A DNA stretch of 64,000 bases, taken from contig NZ_CP071409.1 of assembly GCF_022647505.1 (NCBI RefSeq), forward strand, positions 3,286,001 to 3,350,000, in the 5' to 3' direction. Numbering within the stretch: the stretch's first letter is position 1; each line of letters opens with the position of its first letter. Source of the DNA: [Pantoea] beijingensis (GTDB lineage: Bacteria; Pseudomonadota; Gammaproteobacteria; Enterobacterales; Enterobacteriaceae). Shown piece after piece: positions 12,231-27,207 of this stretch. The notes beneath the pieces are model-generated. The model was not told the DNA's origin, searched no databases, and saw only the letters and a list, made by a program, of their open reading frames with translations. The position numbers and the translations under genes are program-made.

Positions 12231-14153
12231 TTAATAACGCCGCTGCCACTCGCTGTCCGAGAGGATCTTATCAGGTTGTTTCATAAAATGGCGGTAGTAG
12301 GCGGCATACGCCAGCACGTTCTTCACATATCCCCGCGTTTCAGAAAAGGGGATGGTTTCGATAAAGGCCACCGCATCCAGTCGCCCTGCGCTATTGCCCA
12401 GCCAGGTTCTCACCCGGGATGGGCCTGCATTATAGGCGGCCGATGAGAAAATACGGTTCTGCCCGAACTGCTGATAAACCGACTCCAGATATTGCGTGCC
12501 GATTTGAATGTTGGTTTGCGGATCCAATAACTGACTGCTGTTCACATAACCCGGAATATTATAGGACTGCACGGTATGTGTCGCCGTGGCAGGCATAACT
12601 TGCATCAAACCAGAAGCCCCAACCGGCGAACGCGCTTTGGGATTCCACGCACTTTCCTGCCGAGCTATCGCCATTGCGTAGCTCTGAGGAATGTTCTTAT
12701 CACGTGTAAAGCGCTCAAACTGATCTTTGTACGCCAGTGGGAAACGCTCTTCCAGATGATCCCACAATTTACCGCTGATGGTGGCCTGCACGCTAAGATC
12801 CCACCAGTCCTGCTCAAAGGCATAACGCGCTAACATCTGCTGCCCGGACGGCGTTTTACTCGTCACCAGATACGCCCATTCACTGCGCGCGAGGTTATCC
12901 ATATTCCAGTACATTAACTCGCGAACACGAGCAATCTCTTCGCCCTGCCCAACAGTGCTATCGGGATGCACGGCTGCATCAATACGCAGAGGGTAATCGA
13001 CACCTAACCGCTGCGCCGCCACCATTGGATAAAAACCGCGCTGCTGCATCAGCGCCTTTAAAATTTCCTCACCTTCATCTTTACGACCACGTTCAAGCAG
13101 CAGATCGGCCTGCCAGTACTGCCACTCATCCTTCTGCTTAGCTTCAACCGGCAGCCGGGAAAGCCAGGTATTTAAACCACGGCGGTCGTTATTACCCAAC
13201 GACATACGTACACGCCGTTCAATCAGTGCAGTGGATTCGCTGCGCATAATCACATCGTCGCGCCAGCGTGCCTGCTCACTGGTGACATCATTCCCCATCA
13301 AACGCCAGGCGACCGCATCATCAAGTTGTTGGCGATCCTCATCACCCATTTGCTGCAGGCGAACCAGCGTCGGGATCATTGCACGCGCAGTTTCCGCATC
13401 CTGCCCAACCATGCGAGTAAACGCGATGACGGTTGCTTGTCGGGTAAAATCCGTTGCGCCAACATTACGGGCGAATGCCTCTACGGTCGTTGGATCGTTT
13501 TGCAGATCCATTACCGCATTCGCTATGGTTTGATAATCTGAAGGCAGTTGCTTCGCAAGAAAATTAACGAGGCTGGTGTTTCCGGCCTTCATGGCCAGGC
13601 GGATGCGTTCCAGCGTCGTAATCGCCGTTTGCTGGCCCGCTCCCTGCCACACAGAAAACAACTTATCGCAGGCGGTCGGTAGCGACGAGCCCGTGAGCCA
13701 AATCTCTTTTGCTCCCGAATAAGCAACCTGCTGTTGGCCCAGTGACCATTGCGCATAATACCAATTGCAACGCGCCGAGACGGGTGCCGGTACCTGCGGA
13801 CTGAATGCCATCAAACCTCGCCAGTCCTGACGTCGGGCCAGTTCATTAACAAATCGGGAAGCGAGAGAATGCACCGGCGGTAACGTCGGATGCGCTTTAA
13901 TAAAGTTGCTGACCGCCATGCTGGTTTCTTGATCGAGATTTTGCGACAGCAAACGGTACTCAAGGTAGGGATAGAGCGGATAGTCTCGCAACGTTGGCAT
14001 CAGCTGATATACCGTATCCATTTGCTTATTATCCCACGCCAGCTTAATTTGCTGGTAACGCTCGCGCTGCGCGTCTAACGCGTCGGCATGGGCACTTCCG
14101 GCCATTACGGCCAGCAAGGTTCCAACCATCCAATACTGCCATTTGTCTGCCAT
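12231..14153 (-). CDS. slt: Soluble lytic murein transglycosylase
   Basis: Periplasmic enzyme that cleaves peptidoglycan between MurNAc and GlcNAc with 1,6-anhydro ring formation. I place the start at the ATG at 14153 (MADKWQYW), with a signal peptide ending near AHA; the alternative ATG four codons upstream is possible. About 640 residues match E. coli Slt70 (645). The long helical U and L domains occupy most of the protein, and the C-terminal catalytic domain has the catalytic glutamate in [21 protein letters not shown] and AAYNAGPSR. The gene ends 14 bases before the trp operator. Its upstream region is shared with the urea island. Confidence 0.95.
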
Positions 14154-14277
14154 GACTTTTCCCACGTTAGCGCCTCTCTTATCCCAGTGTTACAAAAAAT
14201 AGCTCTTTCATGCTAACCGCGCCGCGCGTATCACGCCATGTTTCCAACAAAATTTTACGTTACGGCTGCAACATACG

Positions 14278-14344
14278 TTCTCACGGCACCGCCTGCCCCA
14301 TCATCGCACATCCTTGAGCCATAAATGTGCAAGCGCCGTGAGAA
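14278..14344. promoter_or_regulatory. Nested inverted repeats upstream of the sigma-54 promoter
   Basis: TTCTCACGGC (14278-14287) and GCCGTGAGAA (14335-14344) are a perfect 10-bp inverted repeat; inside it GCACAT (14306-14311) and ATGTGC (14325-14330) form a second one. The block lies 40-106 bases upstream of the -24 element, the right distance for an enhancer-binding activator. It does not match the 17-bp NtrC consensus well, so the bound protein is unknown. Confidence 0.4.
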
Positions 14345-14383
14345 AATTACATTTACTCATTAATAATCAATATATTATAAACA

Positions 14384-14399
14384 TGGCACGCTGTTTGCT
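14384..14399 (+). promoter_or_regulatory. Sigma-54 (RpoN) promoter of the urea island
   Basis: TGGCACGCTGTTTGCT matches the sigma-54 consensus TGGCACG-N4-TTGCW at every defined position, with GG (14385-14386) and GC (14397-14398) exactly ten bases apart. Transcription should start near 14410, about 30 bases before the first gene. This implies an enhancer-binding activator such as NtrC under nitrogen limitation. Confidence 0.85.
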
Positions 14400-14411
14400 G
14401 TAGTGAATCCA

Positions 14412-14427
14412 ATCTTGTATACCAGAT
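14412..14427. promoter_or_regulatory. Probable GntR-family operator at the urea promoter
   Basis: ATCTTGTATACCAGAT is a 16-bp palindrome with one mismatched pair and a GTATAC centre, typical of FCD-type GntR operators (for example ATCTGGTATACAAGAT in reverse complement). It covers the predicted transcription start of the sigma-54 promoter, a position for repression. The candidate repressor is the GntR/FCD gene at 19862. Confidence 0.55.
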
Positions 14428-14439
14428 GGAATTCACACT

Positions 14440-16242
14440 ATGGAATCAATAACAGGGCTAACGCTGCAACAATGGCAACAACATTTTCTGCAGCACGCGG
14501 AGACGATCGGCGAAACGCTGAGTGCATTGTTGGATACGCTATCGACCGACGATAATGCCTGGATCTGTCTGGCAAGCCCGGCTCAACTGCAGGCTCAAAT
14601 TGAGCCACTGCTGACCGCCTGGCATAAAGATCCGAGCGCACTGCCACTCTTCGGCGTGCCCTTTGCAGTAAAAGATAATATTGATGTTGCCGGCTGGCCA
14701 ACTACTGCCGCCTGCCCTGCTTTGACCTACGTCGCGGCACAAGACGCGACCGCCGTGGCTAACTTAAAGGCCGCAGGAGCGGTGGTCATCGGTAAAACCA
14801 ATCTCGATCAGTATGCCACTGGCCTGGTTGGAACGCGCTCACCCTTTGGTGCCGTGGTGAATACATTTAATGCTGACTATGTTAGCGGCGGTTCCAGTTC
14901 AGGTTCCGCATCAGTCCTGGCCCGTGGACTGGTTGCTTTTGCGTTGGGCACCGACACCGCGGGTTCAGGACGCGTTCCGGCTGGTTTTAACAATATCGTC
15001 GGACTCAAACCGACCAAGGGCTGGATTTCAGCAAGCGGCGTGGTCCCCGCCTGTCGCCTTAATGACACCATTTCCATCTTTGCGCTGACCGTTGAAGATG
15101 CTTTTATCGTTGCCGGTCACGCAGCGGGTTACGATGCAACAGATGCCTATTCTCGCCACAATCCGGCTTCAGCACCAGCCGCATTGCCAGCAGCCCCCCG
15201 CTTCGCCATCCCGGCTAATGTGGTGTTTTTCGATGATGCTCAGGCTGAAGCGGCATGGGAACAGGCGCTCAACGCGCTTAGCGCGAGCGGTGCGACGTTC
15301 CAACCCATCGATTTCACCGTTTTCCAGCAGCTTGCTGAACAACTCTATTACGGTCCATGGGTGGCAGAACGCACCGTTGCGGTCGGCGAGATGCTTCAAC
15401 ATCCGGATAAAATGGATCCTGTCGTACACGGTATCATTGCCAGCGGTAAAAATTACAGCGCGACCGACGCCTTTAAAGCGGAATATCTACGTGCCGAACT
15501 GACGCGAAAAATACAGCAAACGCTGAGCCAGTTTGATGCATTAGTTGTCCCCACATCGCCAACTATTCATACGCTTGAAGAGATGAAGCAGGAGCCGGTG
15601 CGCTATAACTCACAGTTTGGCACCTACACCAACTTCACCAATCTGGCCGACCTGTCGGCACTGGCGCTGCCCGCGCCTTTTCGCACCGATGGGCTACCGG
15701 CCGGTATCACGCTGATTGCTCCCGCATGGCACGACCGCGCACTCGCAAGCTTTGGCATGCGTTGGCAGCAACAACTGTCACTGCCGCTTGGCGCTACCGG
15801 CAAGCCACAGCCTACCGATCATTTGCCTTTACCCGCATCACCGTTACACGTTCGCCTCGCCGTGGTGGGGGCACACCTCAGTGGCATGCCGCTTAATCAT
15901 CAGCTCATCAGTCGTAATGCCGTACGGGTTGAAGAAACCAAAACCGCAGATAACTACCGCTTGTATGCACTGGCTAACACCCAACCAGCAAAACCGGGGC
16001 TGGTAAAAGCCGAAACCGGTGCCGCGATTATCGTTGAGCTTTGGGATGTCCCTCTGGCGCGCTTTGGTGAGTTTGTCGCGGAGATCCCCGCGCCGTTAGG
16101 GATCGGCAATATAACACTGGCAGATGGTCGTCAGGTTAAAGGCTTTATTTGTGAACCTTCAGCACTGAGCGATGCTCGCGATATCACCACTTTTGGCGGC
16201 TGGCGTCACTGGCTGACCAGCAAGGAGAACTCTCATGTTTAA
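14440..16242 (+). CDS. atzF: Allophanate hydrolase
   Basis: Hydrolyses allophanate (urea-1-carboxylate) to two ammonia and two CO2 equivalents, the second half of the urea amidolyase route. The 600-residue protein has an N-terminal amidase-signature domain (about 1-440) with the catalytic lysine in FAVKDNID (about 78), the cis-serine in SGGSSSGSA (about 150) and the nucleophile serine in GTDTAGSGRVP (about 175). The C-terminal allophanate-hydrolase domain (about 470-597) carries LANTQPAKPGL and VELWDVPLARFGEF. It is the first gene of the island behind the sigma-54 promoter, and its end overlaps the next gene by eight bases, so the two enzymes are coupled. No urease gene is present here. Confidence 0.93.
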   Translation: MESITGLTLQQWQQHFLQHAETIGETLSALLDTLSTDDNAWICLASPAQLQAQIEPLLTAWHKDPSALPLFGVPFAVKDNIDVAGWPTTAACPALTYVAAQDATAVANLKAAGAVVIGKTNLDQYATGLVGTRSPFGAVVNTFNADYVSGGSSSGSASVLARGLVAFALGTDTAGSGRVPAGFNNIVGLKPTKGWISASGVVPACRLNDTISIFALTVEDAFIVAGHAAGYDATDAYSRHNPASAPAALPAAPRFAIPANVVFFDDAQAEAAWEQALNALSASGATFQPIDFTVFQQLAEQLYYGPWVAERTVAVGEMLQHPDKMDPVVHGIIASGKNYSATDAFKAEYLRAELTRKIQQTLSQFDALVVPTSPTIHTLEEMKQEPVRYNSQFGTYTNFTNLADLSALALPAPFRTDGLPAGITLIAPAWHDRALASFGMRWQQQLSLPLGATGKPQPTDHLPLPASPLHVRLAVVGAHLSGMPLNHQLISRNAVRVEETKTADNYRLYALANTQPAKPGLVKAETGAAIIVELWDVPLARFGEFVAEIPAPLGIGNITLADGRQVKGFICEPSALSDARDITTFGGWRHWLTSKENSHV

Positions 16243-19200
16243 TACCGTACTGATTGCGAACCGTGGTGAAATCGCCTGCCGGGCGATACGGACATTAAAG
16301 CGTTTAGGCATTACCAGCGTCGCGGTCTATTCCGATGCGGATAAAAATGCGCAGCATGTGAAAGATGCTGACATCGCTATTGCCCTCGGGGGCGAAAAAG
16401 CCGGTGACAGCTATCTGCGCATCGACAAAATTCTCGCCGCTGCGCAGGAAAGCGGCGCTCAGGCGATTTGGCCCGGCTACGGCTTTCTGTCCGAAAGCCT
16501 GCCGTTTGCTGACGCATGTGAACAGGCTGGCATCATCTTTATCGGCCCCACCGCGCAGCAAATCGGCGAGTTCGGACTGAAACACCGGGCGCGTGAATTA
16601 GCGGCAGAGGCAGGTGTACCAATGACGCCGGGCACTGCCCTGCTGGCTTCGCTTGAAGAGGCGCAGGAAGCAGCAGAAAAGATCGGTTATCCGGTCATGC
16701 TTAAAAGTACTGCGGGCGGCGGCGGCATTGGCTTAACCCGTTGCGCAGATGCCGATGCACTGCGCAATGCCTGGGAAAGCGTTCGTCGCCTGGGTGAACA
16801 TTTTTTCAGTGATGCCGGCGTATTCCTTGAACGCTGTATCGACCGGGCTCGCCATGTTGAAGTACAAATATTTGGCGACGGTAAAGGTAAAGTGATTGCC
16901 CTCGGTGAACGCGATTGCTCGCTGCAGCGTCGCAACCAGAAAGTGGTAGAAGAAACACCCGCGCCGGGTTTACCTGCCGCAACCCGTACCGCACTGCTAG
17001 ACTCCGCCGTTAAACTGGGCGAACTGGTCAATTACCGCAGCGCAGGAACCGTAGAATATATTTATGATGCCGAACGTGATGCTTTTTACTTCCTGGAAGT
17101 GAACACGCGCTTGCAAGTAGAGCATCCGGTTACCGAAAGTGTGACCGGGCTCGATCTGGTGGAGTGCATGCTACAGGTCGCCGCCGGAATTCCCCTCGAC
17201 TGGGAACGGATGGCACAGCCTCCCGTCGGCGCATCTATTGAAGTCAGGCTCTATGCCGAAGACCCACTGAAAAACTTTCAGCCCAGCCCGGGTGTACTCA
17301 CTGAAGTCTGTTTCCCCGAAGGCGTACGTGTTGACGGCTGGGTGAATACCGGCACCCATGTTTCTGCGTTCTACGATCCGATGATTGCCAAGCTGATCGT
17401 ACATGCAGAAAACCGAGAGGCTGCACTGAAAAAAATGCAGGAGGCTCTGAGCCAAACCCGCCTGCACGGTATTGCCACTAACCTCGACTATCTGCGTCAG
17501 ATTATTGCCACCGATGCTTTTCACAGCGGCAATGTCTGGACCCGCATGCTCGATAGTTTTACCCCGTCAGCACAGGTAATTGAAGTGGTACAGCCCGGAA
17601 CCTGGAGCAGCATACAGGATTATCCGGGACGTCTTGGCTACTGGGATATTGGTGTGCCTCCTTCTGGCCCGATGGACGATTTCGCCTTCCGCCTGGCGAA
17701 CCGCATCGTGGGTAATGCCGAAGAGGCTGCGGGACTTGAGTTTACTCTGCAAGGCCCAACACTGCGCTTTCATAGCGATGCCACTATTGCTCTGACCGGT
17801 GCAGACTGCCCGGCAATGCTCGATGGTGAGGCGATCGGTTATTGGCAGCCGGTGGACGTGAAAGCCGGTCAAACCCTGGCATTGGGACGTGCGCAGCATG
17901 GCTGCCGTACTTACCTGGCGGTACGCAACGGCTTTGATGTGCCGGTGTATCTTGGCAGCCGTTCGACATTTGTGCTGGGCCAGTTTGGTGGCCATGCTGG
18001 CCGCACGTTGCGCGTCGCCGATATGCTGGCGATCTCCCAGCCACAGCTGGCTGCCTGCACGACGCCAGCCCCCACCAGCGCACCGCAGGCTATCCATTCA
18101 TCACTGATACCAGAGTATGGTGACGAATGGCGTATCGGCGTGCTGTATGGTCCACATGGCGCACCGGATTTTTTCACTCAGGAATCTATTGATGCGTTCT
18201 TTGCCAGCGAATGGCAGGTTCACTACAACTCTAACCGTCTTGGCGTCAGGCTGGAAGGCCCTAAACCAAGCTGGACACGCGCTGACGGTGGCGAAGCAGG
18301 CCTGCATCCTTCAAACGTCCACGATTGTGAATACGCGATTGGCGCGGTGAACTTTACCGGTGACTTTCCGGTAATTCTGACGCGTGACGGTCCCAGCCTT
18401 GGTGGTTTTGTTTGCCCGGTGACGATTGCGAAGGCGGAACTATGGAAAGTGGGTCAGGTTAAACCTGGCGATCGTATTCGTTTCCATCCTATCGATTTTC
18501 ACCATGCGCAGGCACTCGAACAAGCGCAGACAGCAAGTATTGAAAACCTGACCGCCGCGTATGTCCCTAACGCTGAGGCACCCTCTCTTGCCGAAACGGA
18601 GCTGGGTTCAGCAACACTACTGGCAGCAGTCAAAGCAACATCGACAACCCCAACGGCAGTTTATCGTCAGGCGGGGGATAATTACGTACTGATTGAATAC
18701 GGCGACAACGTGCTGGATCTGGCGCTGCGTTTGCGCGTGCACCTGCTAATGAATGCGATCCGAGAGGCCGCGCAGCCGGGAATAGAAGAACTCTCACCGG
18801 GCGTACGCTCATTGCAGATCCGCTATGACAGCCGCCAGATCAGCCAGAAGGATCTGCTCGCACTGCTACTCTCGCTGGAAAAAAACCTGGGTGAAGTAAA
18901 TAACATGCGGGTTCCGTCGCGCATTATTCACCTACCGATGGCCTTTGAAGACAGCGCCACGCTGGGAGCGGTGTCACGCTATCAGGAAACGGTTCGTGCC
19001 AATGCGCCATGGTTGCCCAATAACGTTGACTTTATTCAACGTATCAATGGGTTACCAAATAGAGAGGCGGTTAAAGAGACCATTTTTGACGCCAGCTATC
19101 TGATTCTCGGCCTCGGCGATGTTTATCTCGGCGCGCCCTGCGCGGTACCGGTTGACCCCCGTCATCGCTTACTCAGCTCCAAATATAACCCGGCGCGCAC

Positions 19201-19852
19201 CTTTACGGCAGAAGGCACCGTCGGTATCGGCGGAATGTACATGTGCATTTATGGCATGGACTCACCCGGGGGATATCAACTGGTGGGCCGCACGCTGCCG
19301 ATCTGGAACACCTTCCTTAAGAACTCACAGTTTTCCGCCAGCGAACCCTGGCTACTACGTTTCTTCGATCAGGTACGTTTCTATCCGGTCAGCGAAGCCG
19401 AGCTGGATACACTGCGTGACGATTTCCGCGAAGGCCGCGCGGCTATCACGATTGAAGAAAGCATTTTCGATTTTGCTGAGCACCGCCAGTTTCTTGAAAC
19501 ACATGCCGAGTCAATCGCCGAGTTCCGTCAACACCAGTCACGCGCTTTCGCAACCGAAGTGGCTCTGTGGCAGGAGGAAGAAGAAGGTGCGCCGCTCACC
19601 AGTGAAGAGAATCTTCAACTCCCTGACACCGACGAACACGCCCTGCAGGTTAGCGCAGATATGAACGGTAACATCTGGAAAGTCCTGGTGAAACCAGGTG
19701 ATGAAGTGGTCGCGGGCCAGCCGTTGATCATCGTAGAGGCAATGAAAATGGAGCTAACCATCCATGCACCTCAGGGCGGCCGCGTCAAACAGATTGGCTG
19801 CCAGCCAGGCCGTCCCGTTAGCCCCGGCGATGCTTTGCTGTGGCTGGAATAA
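16235..19852 (+). CDS. uca: Urea carboxylase (biotin-dependent)
   Basis: Carboxylates urea to allophanate with ATP and bicarbonate. The 1205 residues show, in order: a biotin carboxylase module (1-450; ANRGEIACRAIRT at the start, ATP-grasp loop KSTAGGGGIG, EVNTRLQVEH); an AHS2/KipA-like domain (about 450-760; GTWSSIQDYPGR, GVPPSGPMDD); an AHS1/KipI-like domain (about 795-1015; VLIEYGDNVLDL, with GVGGMYM-like region further on); and a biotinyl domain whose lysine lies in VEAMKME near residue 1170. This is the usual order in urea carboxylase. It starts at the ATG overlapping the atzF stop. The enzyme needs biotinylation by BirA. Confidence 0.95.
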   Translation: MFNTVLIANRGEIACRAIRTLKRLGITSVAVYSDADKNAQHVKDADIAIALGGEKAGDSYLRIDKILAAAQESGAQAIWPGYGFLSESLPFADACEQAGIIFIGPTAQQIGEFGLKHRARELAAEAGVPMTPGTALLASLEEAQEAAEKIGYPVMLKSTAGGGGIGLTRCADADALRNAWESVRRLGEHFFSDAGVFLERCIDRARHVEVQIFGDGKGKVIALGERDCSLQRRNQKVVEETPAPGLPAATRTALLDSAVKLGELVNYRSAGTVEYIYDAERDAFYFLEVNTRLQVEHPVTESVTGLDLVECMLQVAAGIPLDWERMAQPPVGASIEVRLYAEDPLKNFQPSPGVLTEVCFPEGVRVDGWVNTGTHVSAFYDPMIAKLIVHAENREAALKKMQEALSQTRLHGIATNLDYLRQIIATDAFHSGNVWTRMLDSFTPSAQVIEVVQPGTWSSIQDYPGRLGYWDIGVPPSGPMDDFAFRLANRIVGNAEEAAGLEFTLQGPTLRFHSDATIALTGADCPAMLDGEAIGYWQPVDVKAGQTLALGRAQHGCRTYLAVRNGFDVPVYLGSRSTFVLGQFGGHAGRTLRVADMLAISQPQLAACTTPAPTSAPQAIHSSLIPEYGDEWRIGVLYGPHGAPDFFTQESIDAFFASEWQVHYNSNRLGVRLEGPKPSWTRADGGEAGLHPSNVHDCEYAIGAVNFTGDFPVILTRDGPSLGGFVCPVTIAKAELWKVGQVKPGDRIRFHPIDFHHAQALEQAQTASIENLTAAYVPNAEAPSLAETELGSATLLAAVKATSTTPTAVYRQAGDNYVLIEYGDNVLDLALRLRVHLLMNAIREAAQPGIEELSPGVRSLQIRYDSRQISQKDLLALLLSLEKNLGEVNNMRVPSRIIHLPMAFEDSATLGAVSRYQETVRANAPWLPNNVDFIQRINGLPNREAVKETIFDASYLILGLGDVYLGAPCAVPVDPRHRLLSSKYNPARTFTAEGTVGIGGMYMCIYGMDSPGGYQLVGRTLPIWNTFLKNSQFSASEPWLLRFFDQVRFYPVSEAELDTLRDDFREGRAAITIEESIFDFAEHRQFLETHAESIAEFRQHQSRAFATEVALWQEEEEGAPLTSEENLQLPDTDEHALQVSADMNGNIWKVLVKPGDEVVAGQPLIIVEAMKMELTIHAPQGGRVKQIGCQPGRPVSPGDALLWLE

Positions 19853-19861
19853 GGAGCCGCT

Positions 19862-20578
19862 ATGCAGCAGGCCAGCTTTCATCAGAAACGCAATAAGGGG
19901 CGTCCAGAGGTCCTCGCGGAACGTGTTTATCAGGCGATTAAAAACGACATTTTTGATTTCCGTCTGATGCCGGGAGATCGCTTCAGTGAGAGTGAAATGG
20001 CTGAACGCATGGACGTCAGCCGCACACCGGTCCGTCAGGCGTTGTTCTGGCTTGAGCGGGAAGGCTATGTCGAAGTGTGGTTTCGCAGCGGCTGGCAAGT
20101 AAGGCCCTTCGATTTTGAGTACTTCGAAGAACTGTATGACTTTCGCATAGTGCTGGAGCGCGAAGCCATCCGCCGCCTGTGCGGTATGCCTCCGGGACGC
20201 TGCGCCGAGCTGCTAAGCGAGCTTATCGCATTCTGGATTGACGATCCGCGCCTCGAAGAGGGGAAAACCGTGTCGTTACATGACGAAGGTTTCCATATGG
20301 CGCTGGTTGCTGCAGCAGGAAACGGAGAAATGGCACGGATCCATGCCGAGCTGACCGAAAAAATTCGCATCATTCGTCGCCTGGACTTTACCCGGGAAGA
20401 CCGCATGGGTGCCACCTATAACGAACACGCCCGCATTTTGCGGGCGATATTAAAACAACAAACCGAGGAGGCACAGCGCATCCTGACCGATCATATTTCC
20501 ATCAGTAAAGCGGAGGTCAGGAAAATCACTCTACACATGCTACAGCAGGCCAGATCACAAACCGATGCATCCGAATAA
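19862..20578 (+). CDS. GntR-family regulator with FCD ligand domain
   Basis: A 238-residue transcription factor: the winged helix at about residues 20-85 (LAERVYQAIKNDIFDFRL, FSESEMAERMDVSRTPVRQAL) is GntR type, and the all-helical C-terminal FCD domain (about 95-230) has the metal/ligand-binding residues in FHMALVAAAGN and the late histidines NEHARIL and DHISISK. It starts ten bases after urea carboxylase behind an AAGGAG site. Position and the palindrome at 14412-14427 suggest it represses the urea genes and responds to urea, allophanate or a related acid; the ligand is unknown. Confidence 0.85.
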   Translation: MQQASFHQKRNKGRPEVLAERVYQAIKNDIFDFRLMPGDRFSESEMAERMDVSRTPVRQALFWLEREGYVEVWFRSGWQVRPFDFEYFEELYDFRIVLEREAIRRLCGMPPGRCAELLSELIAFWIDDPRLEEGKTVSLHDEGFHMALVAAAGNGEMARIHAELTEKIRIIRRLDFTREDRMGATYNEHARILRAILKQQTEEAQRILTDHISISKAEVRKITLHMLQQARSQTDASE

Positions 20579-20729
20579 TTTGAACAGGCGTTATTGTCGC
20601 AGCCCGTTTAGCAACGGTCGCGGCGCGGCAACCAGCGTATAGAACGCTGCATAGTAGGATGCCAGCACGCCCATTTGCGTGTGCTGGTCACAAAAATAGT
20701 CAGATCAATACTTTTGAGGGTTTCCGGAG
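20579..20729. promoter_or_regulatory. Gap ahead of urtA with an inverted repeat
   Basis: CCAGCAC (20662-20668) and GTGCTGG (20681-20687) form a 7-bp perfect inverted repeat about 45 bases before urtA, and CAGCG/CGCTG (20633-20649) a shorter one. No good sigma-70 or sigma-54 promoter was seen, so the transporter genes may be read from the promoter upstream of atzF. Confidence 0.3.
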
Positions 20730-21998
20730 ATGAAAAGACGTTCACTTTTGCAAGCATTTGCACTCACGGCAACGGTCATCAGCATGGGCGTCGCCTGGAG
20801 CGTACAGGCCGCTGATACCATCAAGGTCGGTATCATGAGTTCGCTCTCAGGCACGATGGCGATCTCTGAAACTCCCCTGAAAGACGTGGCATTAATGACC
20901 ATTGATGAAATCAATGCGAAGGGTGGCGTTCTGGGGAAAAAACTGGAGCCGGTGGTGGTTGATCCTGCCTCTAACTGGCCATTATTTGCCGAAAAGGCAC
21001 GTCAGCTGCTATCGCAAGATAAAGTCGCAGCGGTATTTGGCTGCTGGACCTCGGTTTCGCGTAAATCCGTGCTGCCTGTATTTGAAGAGTTAAACGGACT
21101 GTTGTTCTACCCGGTGCAATATGAAGGCGAAGAGATGTCGCCCAACGTGTTCTATACCGGTGCTGCGCCAAATCAGCAGGCCATCCCGGCGGTGGAATAT
21201 CTGATGAGTGAAGACGGCGGCGCGGCAAAACGCTTCTTCCTGCTGGGTACCGATTACGTCTATCCCCGTACCACCAACAAAATCCTGCGTGCATTCCTGC
21301 ACAGCAAAGGTGTACAGGACGCCGATATCAAAGAGGTCTACACCCCATTTGGTTACAGCGATTACCAAACCATCGTCTCTGATATTAAGAAGTTTTCCGA
21401 CGGCGGAAAAACGGCGGTTGTCTCAACGATCAACGGCGACTCCAACGTGCCTTTCTATAAAGAACTGGCAAACCAGGGCATCAAAGCAACGGATGTGCCT
21501 GTTGTGGCCTTCTCCGTGGGTGAAGAAGAGCTGCGCGGGATTGATACCAAGCCCCTGGTCGGTAACTTAGCCGCTTGGAACTACTTCGAATCCGTTGATA
21601 ATCCCAGCAACGCTAAATTTGTTGCCGACTACAAAGCCTATGCCAAAGCCCATAACCTGCCCAATGCCGACACGGTTGTAACTAACGATCCAATGGAGGC
21701 CACCTGGGTTGGTATTCATATGTGGGCACAGGCGGTAGAAAAAGCAGGCACCACTGATGTCGATAAAGTACGTGACGCCATGGCCGGACAAACCTTTGCC
21801 GCGCCAGATGGCTTCACACTGACCATGGACAACACTAACCACCACCTGCATAAACCGGTGATGATCGGTGAAATTGAAGATAACGGCCAGTTCAACGTGG
21901 TGTGGCAGACCGAGCAGCCGATCCGGGCGCAACCATGGAGCCCGTACATTGCCGGTAACGATAAGAAGCCGGACCACCCGGTGAAATCAGCGCAGTAG
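20730..21998 (+). CDS. urtA: Urea ABC transporter, substrate-binding protein
   Basis: Periplasmic receptor of a branched-chain-amino-acid-type transporter specialised for urea. The 422 residues begin with a signal peptide (MKRRSLLQAFALTATV, cleaved near VQAAD); the twin arginines followed by SLL are Tat-like. The mature protein starts DTIKVGIMSSLSGTMAISE, the UrtA hallmark, and continues through GCWTSVSRKSVLPVFEE, FYPVQYEGEE and NDPMEATWVGIHMWAQAVE, all characteristic of UrtA as opposed to LivJ. It follows the catabolic genes in the same direction and begins the urtABCDE set. Confidence 0.95.
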   Translation: MKRRSLLQAFALTATVISMGVAWSVQAADTIKVGIMSSLSGTMAISETPLKDVALMTIDEINAKGGVLGKKLEPVVVDPASNWPLFAEKARQLLSQDKVAAVFGCWTSVSRKSVLPVFEELNGLLFYPVQYEGEEMSPNVFYTGAAPNQQAIPAVEYLMSEDGGAAKRFFLLGTDYVYPRTTNKILRAFLHSKGVQDADIKEVYTPFGYSDYQTIVSDIKKFSDGGKTAVVSTINGDSNVPFYKELANQGIKATDVPVVAFSVGEEELRGIDTKPLVGNLAAWNYFESVDNPSNAKFVADYKAYAKAHNLPNADTVVTNDPMEATWVGIHMWAQAVEKAGTTDVDKVRDAMAGQTFAAPDGFTLTMDNTNHHLHKPVMIGEIEDNGQFNVVWQTEQPIRAQPWSPYIAGNDKKPDHPVKSAQ

Positions 21999-22084
21999 CA
22001 ATATCGACAGCGGCAGGGATGACACTTCCATCCCTGCTCTTCGACGAAATTGAGAAACCATCCTCTTTCAACATAGGCATCGCG

Positions 22085-23659
22085 ATGAATATGGGCAAAA
22101 TAGTTGGGTTATTACTGTCGCTGTGCCTGTTAGCGCCGGGGTTCAGCCGGGCTGGACCGGCCGTAGAGTATGCGGCGGCGAACCGCACACAGCAGGCCAC
22201 ACTCCTTCAGCAGTGGGCCAGTTCACCCGACGCGACACGTTTACCGTTACTTCAGGCACTGCACGATGAGGCGGTGGTCATTGATAGTAACAAACAGCCT
22301 TTCAGGCTCGCAGGGGACAGGCTCACCGCCCTGGAAGGCAACGCGCAGCCGGTCGGAAATACCAAAAAATTGTTTACCAATAACCGGTTAAGAATACTGA
22401 CTCGCAATGCGCTGGCGTCGGTACAGCTTATCAGCGTGGATGCGGCAACTCGACTGCACGCAGCACGCACCTTACAAAATGATGCGGTTGCCGAGCAGCT
22501 ACCGCTATTAAGCCGGCAATTGGCATCTGAGTCAGATAGCGCGGTACATGCCGCACTGACGATCGCACTCGCCAACCTACAATTGAGCGATAGCCGCCCT
22601 GAGGTCAGACTGCACGCCATTACCTTATTGGGTGAAACCAGCGATCCACAGCTACAGGGAAGTCTGCAACGCCTGACCCTGGCGGCAAATGAACCTGATG
22701 CCAGCGTGCGGGCGGCAGCGGAAAAAAGTCTGAAAAATATTCAGCAGCGCCTGATGTGGGGCGATCTGCTGGGACAAGCGTTTACCGGACTGTCATTAGG
22801 CTCGATTCTGCTGTTGGCTGCGCTGGGCCTGGCAATCACCTATGGCCTACTGGGCGTTATCAATATGGCACACGGCGAAATGCTGATGCTCGGTGCCTAT
22901 GCAACCTGGATGGTGCAAACCCTGTTTCAACGGGTTGCTCCCGAGTGGCTGGCCTGGTATCCACTGCTGGCACTGCCGGTCGCTTTTTTCATTACCGCCA
23001 GCATTGGTATGGTGCTGGAGCGCACCATCATTCGCCACCTTTATGGTCGTCCTCTGGAAACGTTGCTCGCAACATGGGGCATTAGCTTGATGTTGATCCA
23101 GCTGGTACGCATGCTGTTTGGCGCACAAAATCTGGAAGTTGCTAACCCGCAGTGGCTGTCCGGGGGCATGCAGATCCTGCCCAATCTGGTCCTGCCCTGG
23201 AATCGGATCGCCGTGATTTTGTTTGTCATCGCGGTGCTCACACTGACCTGGCTACTGCTCAATAAAACGCGTCTTGGAATGAACGTGCGGGCAGTCACAC
23301 AAAATCGGGCAATGGCCGACTGCTGCGGCGTACCAACCGGTCGCGTGGATATGCTGGCCTTTGGATTGGGTTCAGGTATCGCAGGTTTAGGCGGCGTGGC
23401 GCTGTCCCAATTGGGTAACGTGGGACCAGAGCTGGGCCAGGGCTATATTATCGATTCCTTTCTGGTGGTCGTCACCGGCGGCGTTGGTCAACTGGCTGGC
23501 ACCGTTGTGGCCGCATTTGGTCTGGGTATCCTCAATAAAATACTGGAGCCACAAATCGGCGCCGTACTGGGTAAGATCCTGATTCTGGTACTGATCGTAC
23601 TGTTCATTCAAAAAAGGCCACAGGGGCTGTTTGCCTTTAAAGGACGGGTGATTGACTGA
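22085..23659 (+). CDS. urtB: Urea ABC transporter, permease UrtB
   Basis: Inner-membrane permease of the LivH family. I place the start at 22085 (MNMGKIVGLLL), which opens a signal peptide; the upstream in-frame ATG at 22019 gives a charged extension and is less likely. The protein of about 524 residues has a periplasmic N-terminal region (about 30-235) with HEAT-like repeats (VRLHAITLLGE, VRAAAEKSL) that is typical of UrtB, then a LivH-type membrane domain with SLGSILLLAALGLAITYGLLGVINMAHGE and ALSQLGNVGPELGQGYIIDSF. Its TGA overlaps the ATG of urtC. Confidence 0.93.
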   Translation: MNMGKIVGLLLSLCLLAPGFSRAGPAVEYAAANRTQQATLLQQWASSPDATRLPLLQALHDEAVVIDSNKQPFRLAGDRLTALEGNAQPVGNTKKLFTNNRLRILTRNALASVQLISVDAATRLHAARTLQNDAVAEQLPLLSRQLASESDSAVHAALTIALANLQLSDSRPEVRLHAITLLGETSDPQLQGSLQRLTLAANEPDASVRAAAEKSLKNIQQRLMWGDLLGQAFTGLSLGSILLLAALGLAITYGLLGVINMAHGEMLMLGAYATWMVQTLFQRVAPEWLAWYPLLALPVAFFITASIGMVLERTIIRHLYGRPLETLLATWGISLMLIQLVRMLFGAQNLEVANPQWLSGGMQILPNLVLPWNRIAVILFVIAVLTLTWLLLNKTRLGMNVRAVTQNRAMADCCGVPTGRVDMLAFGLGSGIAGLGGVALSQLGNVGPELGQGYIIDSFLVVVTGGVGQLAGTVVAAFGLGILNKILEPQIGAVLGKILILVLIVLFIQKRPQGLFAFKGRVID

Positions 23660-24735
23660 TGACGCAACCAATGACGCTCACTCTGCTGCAAAAAGCGCCA
23701 CGCCTGACGTTCAGTATTGGGACGCTGGTGCTACTGATGTTGCTCGCGTTGCCTTTTTTGGCGCTGCTGCCGGCCAATAATCCGCTGGCGATCTCAACCT
23801 ATACCCTGACGCTGGTAGGCAAAATCCTTTGTTACGCCATCGTAGCGGTTGCACTGGATCTGGTTTGGGGTTACGCCGGCTTACTGTCACTGGGACACGG
23901 TCTGTTTTTCGCACTCGGCGGCTATGCCATGGGCATGTATCTGATGCGCCAGGCCGCTGGTGATGGGCTCCCGGCCTTTATGTCTTTTCTCTCCTGGAGC
24001 GAACTGCCGTGGTTTTGGGCGGGAACACAATACTTTGCCTGGACTCTGTGCCTTATCGTGCTGGTACCTGGGCTGCTGGCGCTGCTTTTCGGCTGGTTCG
24101 CCTTCCGTTCCAAAATTAAAGGCGTCTATTTTTCTATTATGACCCAGGCACTGACCTACGCCGGAATGCTGCTGTTTTTCCGCAATGAAACCGGCTTTGG
24201 CGGTAACAATGGCTTTACCGGATTTACCACACTGCTTGGCTTACCAGTGACGGCGACCGGCACGCGGATCGGGCTTTTTATCGCTACCGTGTTGCTACTG
24301 CTCTTTAGTCTGGCACTGGGATTGTGGCTGGCGCGCAGTAAATTTGGCCGGGTGCTGACGGCTGTACGCGATGCTGAAAACCGGCTGATGTTCTGCGGTT
24401 ATGATCCGAAAGGCTTTAAGCTGTTTGTCTGGACACTGTCTGCCGTATTGTGTGGGCTAGCCGGCGCACTCTACGTCCCCCAGGTCGGCATCATCAATCC
24501 CGGTGAAATGTCCCCCACTAACTCAATTGAAGCCGCAATTTGGGTTGCGCTCGGCGGCCGCGGTACGCTTATCGGTCCTATGCTGGGCGCGGTCATCGTC
24601 AACGGTGCCAAAAGCTGGTTTACCGTGGCATTCCCCGAATACTGGCTATTTTTCCTTGGGTTGATGTTTATTCTCGTGACCCTATTTTTGCCGCGTGGCG
24701 TAATTGGCCTGCTTCGTCGGAGGAAACATGACTGA
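23659..24735 (+). CDS. urtC: Urea ABC transporter, permease UrtC
   Basis: Second inner-membrane permease, LivM family, 358 residues with about eight to nine membrane segments. The motif LVWGYAGLLSLGHGLFFALGGYAMG (near residue 80) and the cytoplasmic coupling loop AVRDAENRLMFCGYDP followed by KLFVWTLSA are the usual LivM/UrtC marks. It overlaps urtB by one base (TGATG type) and urtD by eight bases, so all four genes are translationally coupled. Confidence 0.94.
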   Translation: MTQPMTLTLLQKAPRLTFSIGTLVLLMLLALPFLALLPANNPLAISTYTLTLVGKILCYAIVAVALDLVWGYAGLLSLGHGLFFALGGYAMGMYLMRQAAGDGLPAFMSFLSWSELPWFWAGTQYFAWTLCLIVLVPGLLALLFGWFAFRSKIKGVYFSIMTQALTYAGMLLFFRNETGFGGNNGFTGFTTLLGLPVTATGTRIGLFIATVLLLLFSLALGLWLARSKFGRVLTAVRDAENRLMFCGYDPKGFKLFVWTLSAVLCGLAGALYVPQVGIINPGEMSPTNSIEAAIWVALGGRGTLIGPMLGAVIVNGAKSWFTVAFPEYWLFFLGLMFILVTLFLPRGVIGLLRRRKHD

Positions 24736-25519
24736 GCCTCTGTTTACTCAACCGCATCCGTCAGATCGCTATCGTCATCAGACCGATCCAGTGTTGCAGC
24801 TGGAAAAAATCAACGTCTCTTTTGATGGTTTTCACGCGTTAACTAATCTTTCGCTACAGATCGGCGTCGGAGAGTTGCGCTGTATTATTGGCCCGAACGG
24901 TGCGGGTAAAACTACGCTGATGGATGTTATTACCGGAAAAACGCGTCCGGATAGCGGCAGCGTATTTTACGATCAGAATACCGACCTCACCACACTGTCA
25001 TCCGTTGAGATCGCTCGTAGCGGGATCGGTCGAAAATTTCAAAAACCAACGGTATTTGAAGCACTTTCGGTCTTTGAAAATCTGGAAATTGCCCTGAAAA
25101 CCGATAAATCCGTCTGGACCTGCCTGCGTGCGCGTCTAAACGGTGAACAGCAGGATCGCATTGATGAGGTGCTGAAATTACTGCGGCTTAGCAAGGAGCG
25201 TCATCGACCAGCCGGGTTACTCTCACATGGCCAGAAACAGTTTCTGGAAATCGGTATGCTACTCGTACAGGAACCCCATTTGTTACTCCTTGACGAGCCA
25301 GCCGCAGGCATGACAGATGCCGAAACAGACTATACCGCTGAGCTGTTTCGCGGCCTCGCCGGCAAGCACTCACTGATGGTCGTTGAACACGATATGGGAT
25401 TTGTGGAAACCATCGCCGATCGCGTTACCGTACTTCATCAGGGGCAGGTGCTGGCAGAAGGATCGCTGCGCGAGGTCCAGGCCAACGATCGCGTGATCGA
25501 TGTTTATTTAGGACGCTAA
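24728..25519 (+). CDS. urtD: Urea ABC transporter, ATPase UrtD
   Basis: Cytoplasmic ATP-binding subunit of the LivG type. The start at 24728 (MTEPLF) follows a GGAGGAAAC ribosome site and gives 263 residues; the in-frame start at 24704 lies upstream of that site. Walker A is GPNGAGKTT (about residues 56-64), the signature is the weak LLSHGQKQ (a common UrtD form of LSGGQ), Walker B is LLLLDEPAAGM, and the H-loop is VVEHDM. It works as a pair with UrtE. Confidence 0.94.
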   Translation: MTEPLFTQPHPSDRYRHQTDPVLQLEKINVSFDGFHALTNLSLQIGVGELRCIIGPNGAGKTTLMDVITGKTRPDSGSVFYDQNTDLTTLSSVEIARSGIGRKFQKPTVFEALSVFENLEIALKTDKSVWTCLRARLNGEQQDRIDEVLKLLRLSKERHRPAGLLSHGQKQFLEIGMLLVQEPHLLLLDEPAAGMTDAETDYTAELFRGLAGKHSLMVVEHDMGFVETIADRVTVLHQGQVLAEGSLREVQANDRVIDVYLGR

Positions 25520-25520
25520 T

Positions 25521-26219
25521 ATGTTACAGGTCTCAGAACTGAATCAATATTATGGCGGTAGCCATATTTTGCGTGGGCTCTCTTTCGAGCTACAAATGGG
25601 TGAAGTGACCTGCCTGCTTGGGCGCAACGGCGTAGGAAAAACCACCTTGCTAAAATGCCTGATGGGGTTGCTACCGGTGAAATCCGGCACGATTCGCTGG
25701 CAGCAAAATACCATCAATCAGCGTAAACCACACCAGCGCGTGCAGGCGGGGATCGCGTATGTGCCGCAGGGGCGAGAAATTTTTCCTCGTCTCACGGTGG
25801 AGGAGAACTTGCTGATGGGATTAGCCCGTTTCTCCGGCGCGCAGGCAAGGCAGGTCCCTGATGAAATTTATCAGCTTTTCCCGATACTGAAAGAGATGAA
25901 GCAGCGCCGCGGCGGCGATCTTTCCGGTGGGCAACAGCAGCAGTTGGCCATTGGTCGCGCGCTCGCCTGTAAACCGCAGCTACTGATTTTGGATGAGCCC
26001 ACCGAGGGCATTCAACCTTCGGTGATTAAAGAGATCGGCGCCGTCATTCGCCAACTTGCACAGCGTGGTGATATGTCGATTCTGCTGGTAGAACAGTTTT
26101 ATGATTTCGCTGCAGAGCTCGCGGACAGCTATCTGGTCATGGCCCGCGGGGAAATCGTACAACGTGGGCGGGGGGATACCATGGAAGCTGACGGCGTGCG
26201 CGGGCTAGTGGCAATTTAA
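25521..26219 (+). CDS. urtE: Urea ABC transporter, ATPase UrtE
   Basis: Second ATP-binding subunit, LivF type, 232 residues. Walker A GRNGVGKTT (about 37-45), signature LSGGQQQQLAIGRAL, Walker B LLILDEPTEGIQP and H-loop LLVEQFYDFA are intact. The start codon follows the urtD stop by one base. It is the last gene of the island; the next gene, deoR, lies 220 bases further on and belongs to a different regulon. Confidence 0.94.
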   Translation: MLQVSELNQYYGGSHILRGLSFELQMGEVTCLLGRNGVGKTTLLKCLMGLLPVKSGTIRWQQNTINQRKPHQRVQAGIAYVPQGREIFPRLTVEENLLMGLARFSGAQARQVPDEIYQLFPILKEMKQRRGGDLSGGQQQQLAIGRALACKPQLLILDEPTEGIQPSVIKEIGAVIRQLAQRGDMSILLVEQFYDFAAELADSYLVMARGEIVQRGRGDTMEADGVRGLVAI

Positions 26220-26321
26220 CGGCTCGTATTCAGCACTGCGCGAGGTTCTCCGCCGCAGCGTTGAGGTTTGCGAGGCGATCTCATTACGAGTAATATTGCC
26301 ATTAACCTGCCGGGTAATGCG

Positions 26322-26343
26322 TACCCTCTTATACCAGAGGGTA
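26322..26343. promoter_or_regulatory. Inverted repeat between urtE and deoR
   Basis: TACCCTC and GAGGGTA form a 7-bp perfect inverted repeat around TTATACCA. Read on the minus strand it contains CTGGTATA, the half-site also present in the operator at 14412-14427. It may be a second binding site of the GntR regulator or a hairpin; there is no U-run, so it is a poor terminator. Confidence 0.3.
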
Positions 26344-26439
26344 TTTGCCACAACGCCGTTGGCCAGGCGCGTTATTCGAAATACCGCACTTTTCCCGTAC
26401 TGCCCAGCCCGGCAGCCTACTCACTCAGGAAAGCACATC

Positions 26440-27207
26440 ATGGAAACCCGGCGCGAGGAGCGTGTCAATAAACTGGCACTGGCGTTAAAACGCATTGATA
26501 AACTCCATCTTAAGGATGCGGCGCAGCTGCTTGGCGTATCCGAGATGACCGTTCGCCGCGACCTTAATGAACAACCTTCCGCCGTAGTGCTGCTTGGTGG
26601 CTATATTGTCAGCGATCCAAAAAATAACCAGGGGCACTACTTCGTTTCCGACCAGCAATCGCATAATGTCAGTAAAAAAAGGCAGTTAGGAAAACTGGCC
26701 GCTTCCCTCGTGGACGCTGACTCGACGGTCTTTTTCGACTGTGGTACCACCATACCCTACGTAATCGATGCTATCGACGACGATCTCCCCTTCACCGCCG
26801 TTTGCTGCGCGTTGAATACTTTTCTGGCGCTGAAAGAGAAAAACGCCTGCAACGTAATCCTGAGCGGTGGTGAATTCCATGCAGATAACGCGATCTTCAC
26901 GCCATTAGGACAGCACCATGTGCTGGAGACGCTCTGCCCATCTATCGCCTTTATTTCTGCAGCGGGCATTGACAGCAACCAGGGCGTTACCTGCTTTAAT
27001 GTTAATGAGCTACAGATGAAACATTACGCGCTACAGCGTAGCCAGCATAAAATTTTGGTGGCGGACAGCAGCAAGTTTGGCAAAGTGCTACCTGCCCGAA
27101 TCGGTGAACTATCGCTTTTCCAACATCTGATCAGCGATGCATCGCCTCATGGAGAATTAGCGCTCAAACTGCAGCAAATGGGCGTAGAGATAATCGATTC
27201 GAAATGA
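26440..27207 (+). CDS. deoR: Deoxyribonucleoside operon repressor DeoR
   Basis: DeoR-family repressor that in E. coli shuts off deoCABD and nupG and is released by deoxyribose-5-phosphate. The start at 26440 (METRREERVNKLAL) follows a CAGGAAAG site and gives 255 residues; the first residues METRREER and the helix-turn-helix DKLHLKDAAQLLGVSEMTVRRDLN (about 18-41) match E. coli DeoR almost exactly. The sugar-phosphate-binding domain shows FFDCGTTIPYVIDAID, FTAVCCALNTFLALKEK and LSGGEFHADNAIF. In E. coli deoR is far from this chromosomal region; here it lies about 9 kb from the deo operon it should control. Confidence 0.93.
   Translation: METRREERVNKLALALKRIDKLHLKDAAQLLGVSEMTVRRDLNEQPSAVVLLGGYIVSDPKNNQGHYFVSDQQSHNVSKKRQLGKLAASLVDADSTVFFDCGTTIPYVIDAIDDDLPFTAVCCALNTFLALKEKNACNVILSGGEFHADNAIFTPLGQHHVLETLCPSIAFISAAGIDSNQGVTCFNVNELQMKHYALQRSQHKILVADSSKFGKVLPARIGELSLFQHLISDASPHGELALKLQQMGVEIIDSK

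Follow-up and report, generated by a model that had tools for sequence, protein, structure and literature searches.

A predicted composite sigma-54/GntR promoter upstream of the urea amidolyase genes of [Pantoea] beijingensis

Comparison with related sequences makes it very likely that the urea amidolyase island of [Pantoea] beijingensis is preceded by a composite sigma-54/GntR promoter, which lies in the window (the whole stretch of DNA analysed, 64,000 nucleotides). As an overall explanation, a composite promoter at 14294-14434 that would be repressed by a GntR/FCD regulator and opened by NtrC fits the data best and is considered likely. Across related promoters, both elements recur at a near-fixed spacing and are linked to a gntR gene, and the arrangement recurs in a second module before a biuret operon. 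Binding of the regulator, its action as a repressor rather than an activator and its ligand are what we infer, the choice of repression coming from the position of the operator over +1.

Profile searches identified an island made up of atzF, uca, a GntR/FCD gene and urtABCDE (Table 1), flanked by a gene that we take to be slt on one side and by a deoR gene on the other. Urea carboxylase and allophanate hydrolase both scored above their cut-offs, which agrees with the earlier naming of this region as a urea amidolyase island. At the cut-offs used, atzF was found as one copy in the genome, within the island, and no urease alpha subunit was found in the genome. Between gntR and urtA (20560-20760), no sigma-54 match with up to 4 mismatches was detected on the + strand, and the operator core matched with no fewer than 2 mismatches. 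A separate urtA module in the window was rejected because this gap has no sigma-54/operator pair. In UrtB (22085-23659), about 230 residues precede the part matched by the UrtB model. A search of 14200-14440 against E. coli genomes gave no match.

Table 1. Predicted features of the atzF promoter, the island genes and related modules (window positions unless a locus or contig is named)
Feature	Position	Strand	Basis
Weak NtrC-like site, distal, TGCCCCATCATCGCACA	14294..14310	+	4 mismatches to TGCACY-N5-RGTGCA
Weak NtrC-like site, proximal, TGAGCCATAAATGTGCA	14315..14331	+	3 mismatches
IHF-like match AATCAATATATTA, uncertain, AT-rich stretch	14365..14377	+	promoter-set count
Sigma-54 -24/-12 element TGGCACGCTGTTTGCT; predicted +1 near 14410	14384..14399	+	consensus match and conservation
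Predicted GntR/FCD operator, 30 bp, GAATCCAATCTTGTATACCAGATGGAATTC	14405..14434	.	symmetry and conservation
atzF, allophanate hydrolase	14440..16242	+	TIGR02713, 817.9 bits, cut-off 511
uca, urea carboxylase	16235..19852	+	TIGR02712, 1980 bits, cut-off 1304
GntR/FCD regulator, predicted repressor of 14405-14434	19862..20578	+	Pfam GntR and FCD above cut-off
urtA, urea-binding protein	20730..21998	+	TIGR03407, 589 bits, cut-off 493
urtBCDE, urea ABC transporter	22085..26219	+	TIGR03409, TIGR03408, TIGR03411, TIGR03410 above cut-off
Biuret-type operon behind module	G000:C1 about 169793-177003 (L213 6294-13504)	-	operator and sigma-54 scan
Relocated gntR and ABC operon modules, Brenneria	L229 7173-8003 and 8540-11282; L230, L231		
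Divergent urtA loci	L025-L028, L031, L064, L065, L068, L071, L072, L078, L079		

The sigma-54 element carries GG at 14385-14386 and GC at 14397-14398 with ten bases between them, and all 12 specified positions of the consensus agree, so that the perfect element called by the initial annotation was recovered exactly where it had been placed. The strict consensus occurred once in the 4.1 Mb genome and its reversed control also once, indicating that the motif alone is at chance level. Its significance comes from its conservation and from its position, with 40 bp between its end and the atzF start codon. Following the established geometry, +1 was predicted 12 bases past the C of GC, at 14410. An rpoN gene is present in the genome (TIGR02395, 528.6 bits, cut-off 277.35).

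A 16-bp palindrome had been described over the predicted start. This sequence, ATCTTGTATACCAGAT, does lie where it had been placed, at 14412-14427, but its symmetry is imperfect (7 of 8 pairs), and the true symmetric element is 30 bp long, with 12 of 15 pairs symmetric. Since the longer element spans -5 to +25 relative to the predicted +1, it covers the start; its centre is at about +10 and its core, TTGTATACCA, at 14415-14424. When the genome was searched with the extended operator, allowing no more than 3 mismatches, two sites were found and none with the reversed control. One was the window copy (0 mismatches), and the other stood before the biuret operon (3 mismatches).

Conservation of the pair was assessed in 207 loci, comprising a first set of 80, the atzF loci of 126 among 392 family genomes, and the window. 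Four of them (L076, L077, L080 and L198) were excluded because the 5′ end was missing or the atzF match was too weak. The 203 loci kept gave 190 distinct promoters, that is, promoters differing in the last 120 bp before the start codon as estimated from tblastn, so one species may recur. The initial annotation had proposed seeking the same motif pair upstream of atzF in relatives and had held that a palindrome not conserved there would speak against it. In a joint scan allowing 24-36 bp between the elements, start to start, the pair was found in 152 of the 190 promoters versus 2 of 3800 shuffles, and the palindrome is thus conserved, although these promoters are not independent events because the species are related. 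Carriers include Pectobacterium, Erwinia, Pantoea, Citrobacter, Achromobacter, Bordetella, Alloalcanivorax and Marinimicrobium. With separate cut-offs, 145 promoters had both elements, 16 the operator only, 6 the sigma-54 element only and 23 neither; five of the six sigma-54-only promoters carry a TTGTGTAC variant at the place of the operator, and L064 does not. The offset from the start of the sigma-54 element to the operator core (n = 145) was mostly 30 bp (63 promoters) or 31 bp (61), followed by 29 (10), 33 (5), 26 (3), 32 (2) and 35 (1). Its standard deviation was 1.1 bp, versus 9.6 bp for the distance from the operator to the estimated start codon. At one locus (L105, from the 1.4 Mb genome G037), atzF and uca are retained with neither promoter element found at the atzF start.

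The operator was also counted from the motif side, in a scan of the 392 genomes that listed 103 sites after merging strands. Among the listed sites, all 30 with 0-1 mismatch and 25 of the 29 with 2 mismatches were at atzF starts (55 of 59 together), and the other 4 were in two Brenneria genomes, where they stand before a relocated gntR and an ABC operon. At 3 mismatches the listed sites at atzF starts numbered 19 of 44, while 21 of the remaining 25 were in genomes without atzF at the search cut-off. The reversed control gave about six single matches over the 392 genomes.

The regulator gene encodes a GntR domain (PF00392, 63.8 bits, cut-off 27) and an FCD domain (PF07729, 68.4 bits, cut-off 24.3), and no other close copy was found in the genome. 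Domains of the FCD type usually have a metal site at which they bind carboxylates. Four residues, D141, H145, H189 and H211, were at least 97% invariant in 129 homologues and correspond to the Asp-His-His-His metal residues of this domain. Against named FCD equivalogs (phnR_burk, NanR, CsiR, LldR and others), the best score was 100.8 bits where 271.5 was needed. The relationship between operator and gntR was then examined in 157 distinct promoters whose locus reached at least 5.9 kb. Both were present in 127, gntR only in 8, the operator only in 4 and neither in 18 (Fisher p 4.8e-14, with related species that are not independent). Five of the 8 gntR-only promoters carry the TTGTGTAC variant at the operator place; L054, L061 and L064 have gntR without a recognisable operator. 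Where uca lies upstream of atzF and gntR is absent, the pair was found in 0 of 17 loci. The four operator-only loci were L006, L008, L078 and L135, and a relocated gntR accounts for L006 and L008 only. These two are from Brenneria (G350 and G218), in which a 78-79% identical gntR lies elsewhere, directly behind a module with an offset of 31. An ABC operon of Brenneria has a looser module with an offset of 35, on the same stretch as gntR in G218 and on another contig in G350. Co-variation between GntR residues and operator variants was dominated by ancestry and uninformative.

The two layers come apart in relatives. In Achromobacter and Bordetella, urtA is divergent in 12 loci, and all 12 urtA promoters carry the sigma-54 element without the operator. 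At these loci, nitrogen alone seems to control transport, whereas the enzymes would respond to both signals. On the other hand, in 15 of the 16 operator-only promoters either the -12 GC is non-standard or there is no sigma-54 element at all, indicating that the layers are separable; the remaining one, L055, is picked up by the joint scan. The operator is kept with a changed -12 GC in Dickeya, Prodigiosinella and several Burkholderiales, and in Saccharophagus and a Cellvibrionaceae genome it is present with no sigma-54 element found at the atzF promoter. The uca gene is absent from the locus in 9 of these 15 cases. In Dickeya-like and several Burkholderiales promoters with the operator kept (L021, L022, L135, L145, L040-L044 and L050), the -12 GC reads GA. 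At L041, L042 and L050, the -12 position is also overlapped by a further GntR-like palindrome, full or partial.

The second module of the genome precedes a biuret-type operon. Its promoter, at G000:C1:176953-177003, has a sigma-54 element with 1 mismatch, TGGCACGAAACCTGCT, and the operator follows 31 bp after the start of this element. The genes behind it encode a BMP-type transporter (a label taken from plasmid relatives), a formamidase, BiuH (408 bits, cut-off 370) and a BiuH-like hydrolase below the cut-off; neither atzF nor gntR was found in this operon. At E 1e-60, none of the other 391 family genomes matched the transporter gene, and plasmids of Enterobacter, Klebsiella and Citrobacter carry relatives of it, the protein of the Enterobacter plasmid being 85% identical. 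This Enterobacter plasmid and two Pseudomonas plasmids hold the full set; in each, atzF leads the genes behind a module with an offset of 31-32, and gntR follows the hydrolases. Their GntR is 49% (Enterobacter) or 54% (P. luteola) identical to that of the island. In Zoogloea (L058), atzF, transporter genes (identified by eye), an above-cut-off biuH and gntR lie behind the motif pair. L226 has an operator core without a sigma-54 partner, and no module was found at L227 (start uncertain) or L228 (whose GntR is 27% identical). Among eight class-level biuret-type relatives, the module was present in one (L215) and absent in seven, in a scan before the transporter gene with estimated starts, this gene not necessarily being the first. 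Because the promoter arrangement is repeated before the biuret operon of the same genome, one switch probably governs both routes to allophanate, from urea and from biuret. The island regulator had been proposed as a local repressor. Its tie to the operator is supported, since the operator tracks gntR, but it is probably not merely local, because the unlinked biuret operon has the same kind of module.

These data are consistent with the following mechanism. Sigma-54 RNA polymerase would sit at its element as a closed complex. Under nitrogen starvation, phosphorylated NtrC would open the complex from upstream sites, as suggested by the enrichment of such sites and by known NtrC biology. A GntR/FCD dimer on the 30-bp operator would block opening or escape until a ligand releases it. 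Judging from their close packing, atzF, uca and gntR would be on one transcript, and the repressor would then be under its own control. For the ligand, allophanate is the likeliest candidate because it is the compound common to the urea carboxylase and biuret routes, and we put the chance that it or a close derivative serves at about even. More tentatively, and a little short of even, a single FCD-type GntR may sense allophanate and repress a regulon of unlinked operons (urea carboxylase, biuret hydrolase and, at times, its own gene and a transporter) that share a portable 60-bp module, in which the operator is locked about 30-31 bp downstream of the sigma-54 element. With such a shared module, a newly acquired biuret operon could use the host regulator and AtzF in trans. 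The same architecture might instead respond to urea or another effector, or the GntR protein might be an activator, and there would be no allophanate-sensing regulon. Most module members adjoin uca, and the relocated gntR and module of Brenneria occur with an ABC operon, as would fit such a reading. It is rather unlikely, as the regulator and operator are also found at biuret operons without uca and at atzF without uca, and an operator over +1 suits a repressor.

NtrC sites follow the consensus TGCACY-N5-RGTGCA. Sites with up to 2 mismatches were found in 73 of the 145 promoters with both elements and were absent at that cut-off in 72, versus 3.1 promoters on average and 12 at most in permuted half-site controls (n = 60). 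The N5 spacer was the best of eight (N3 gave 27, N8 gave 21 and none of the others more than 5). Of 81 sites, 71 had their centre roughly 60-120 bp upstream of the sigma-54 element. When the two best sites of each of the 37 closest promoters, including that of the window, were compared, 22 promoters had a site at -68/-69 from the sigma-54 motif, usually with 3 mismatches, and in many relatives a second NtrC-like site lies about 21 bp further upstream. One ntrC gene scored above the cut-off in the genome (TIGR01818, 811.3 bits, cut-off 558.6). IHF-like matches (0-1 mismatch) occurred in 83 of the 145 promoters versus about 21 expected, in an AT-rich stretch and with a simple base shuffle as control. 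NtrC as the activator is therefore well supported for the family by the enriched sites and less so for the window copy, whose pair is degenerate; taken together, it is likely to activate the atzF promoter. That another enhancer-binding protein drives the sigma-54 element is improbable. Four further long activator-like regions of the genome match the NtrC model below its cut-off, and the window sites are weak, but all four regions lie outside the window, the enriched sites have the right spacer for NtrC, and the island genes are nitrogen genes. With the sigma-54 element, the enriched sites and both rpoN and ntrC in the genome, sigma-54/NtrC control as first proposed gains support. Combined with the motif pair and the gntR link, so does the reading of a two-layer switch, with predicted nitrogen activation and GntR repression.

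It is still less probable that the palindrome is bound by another protein (Nac, a HutC-type or some other GntR-like regulator) and that the island GntR acts elsewhere. Nac recognises ATA-N6-TNGTAT, and the operator half-sites resemble its TNGTAT, but the consensus of 88 distinct operator 30-mers reads AAT at the ATA position, for which a Nac site was rejected. For the island protein, the NCBIfam HutC model scored 22.7 bits against a cut-off of 220, and Pfam found FCD and no UTRA, the HutC-type effector domain. The HutC operator is TGTA-N2-TACA in the available part of PMC12977541, but in the 88-sequence consensus the half-sites abut (TGTATACA). Seven other GntR-like matches exist in the genome, but they are distant (no more than 26% identity in long matches, or 48% in a stretch of 48 residues), whereas the operator accompanies the island-type GntR in 127 of 157 promoters and to its new place in Brenneria. 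A leader RNA hairpin acting on stability or translation would fit a palindrome lying mostly downstream of the predicted +1, but was rejected as most improbable, since the leader (14410-14460) folded no better than shuffles (z +0.62), the best conserved bases of the 30-mers include the centre, which would be the loop, just 24% of them have complementary bases at pair 12/19, the left arm begins before +1, the operator-to-start-codon distance varies from -54 to -13, and the sole Rfam match (E ≤1, 14000-27000) is below its cut-off and far from the palindrome.

Combining nitrogen and pathway signals at one site had been put forward as a compact example of signal integration. The conserved pair agrees with this, but the logic is not new in kind, being preceded by HutC at hutU and RutR at rut. 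At the hutU promoter of Pseudomonas, the HutC footprint overlaps the sigma-54 site and NtrBC activates, according to the available part of PMC12977541. That promoter, too, serves a nitrogen catabolic operon with a GntR-family repressor, a TGTA...TACA operator and sigma-54. The two differ in that HutC belongs to the GntR/HutC group while the island regulator has an FCD effector domain, the hutU half-sites are 2 bp apart and those of atzF abut, and the pathways concern histidine and urocanate in one case and allophanate in the other. The rut operon of E. coli is nitrogen-regulated and catabolic with NtrC sites and a palindromic repressor site of about 16 bp (PMC10891134, available part), but its repressor RutR is TetR-related, unlike the GntR/FCD protein, and its pathway concerns pyrimidines.

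Similar gene clusters have been reported. In Ectopseudomonas guguanensis G3, atzF-uca, a GntR gene and urtABCDE lie side by side, and the available part of that report describes no operator, sigma-54 element or GntR role (PMC13296017). Biuret clusters with biuH, atzF, gntR and a bmpA-nupABC transporter resemble the present genomic and plasmid operons, with no operator or sigma-54 site described in the available text (PMC12625717). On the nitrogen side, NtrC control was predicted for atzF in Rhizobiales and for urea transporters in several orders (PMC5343134), and sigma-54 control for COG3665 genes, 59% of 102 labelled urea carboxylase (PMC12316311). NtrC and sigma-54 were suspected at the induced ureABC-urtABCDE genes of K. 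oxytoca (PMC8381380), and a urea carboxylase of B. cenocepacia was down in an ntrC mutant (PMC5491218), in a cluster with 'urea carboxylase-related' transporter and aminomethyltransferase genes that is probably of the other uca type. In the available parts of these four studies, no GntR layer is described at these genes. In searches of an open-access library, no paper was found that gives the function or operator of an island-type GntR/FCD regulator.

The atzF promoter thus appears to be a clean and widely conserved example of a short DNA module on which general nitrogen control would meet control specific to the pathway. Natural variants separate the layers, with the sigma-54 element and no operator at divergent urtA promoters, the operator without a standard sigma-54 element in Dickeya and some Burkholderiales, and both elements at some biuret operons. 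For the bacterial use of urea and biuret, which bears on fertiliser nitrogen, the analysis names a regulator family and a candidate ligand that can be tested. Induction by allophanate is known in yeast, and the allophanate regulon, if true, would be its bacterial counterpart.
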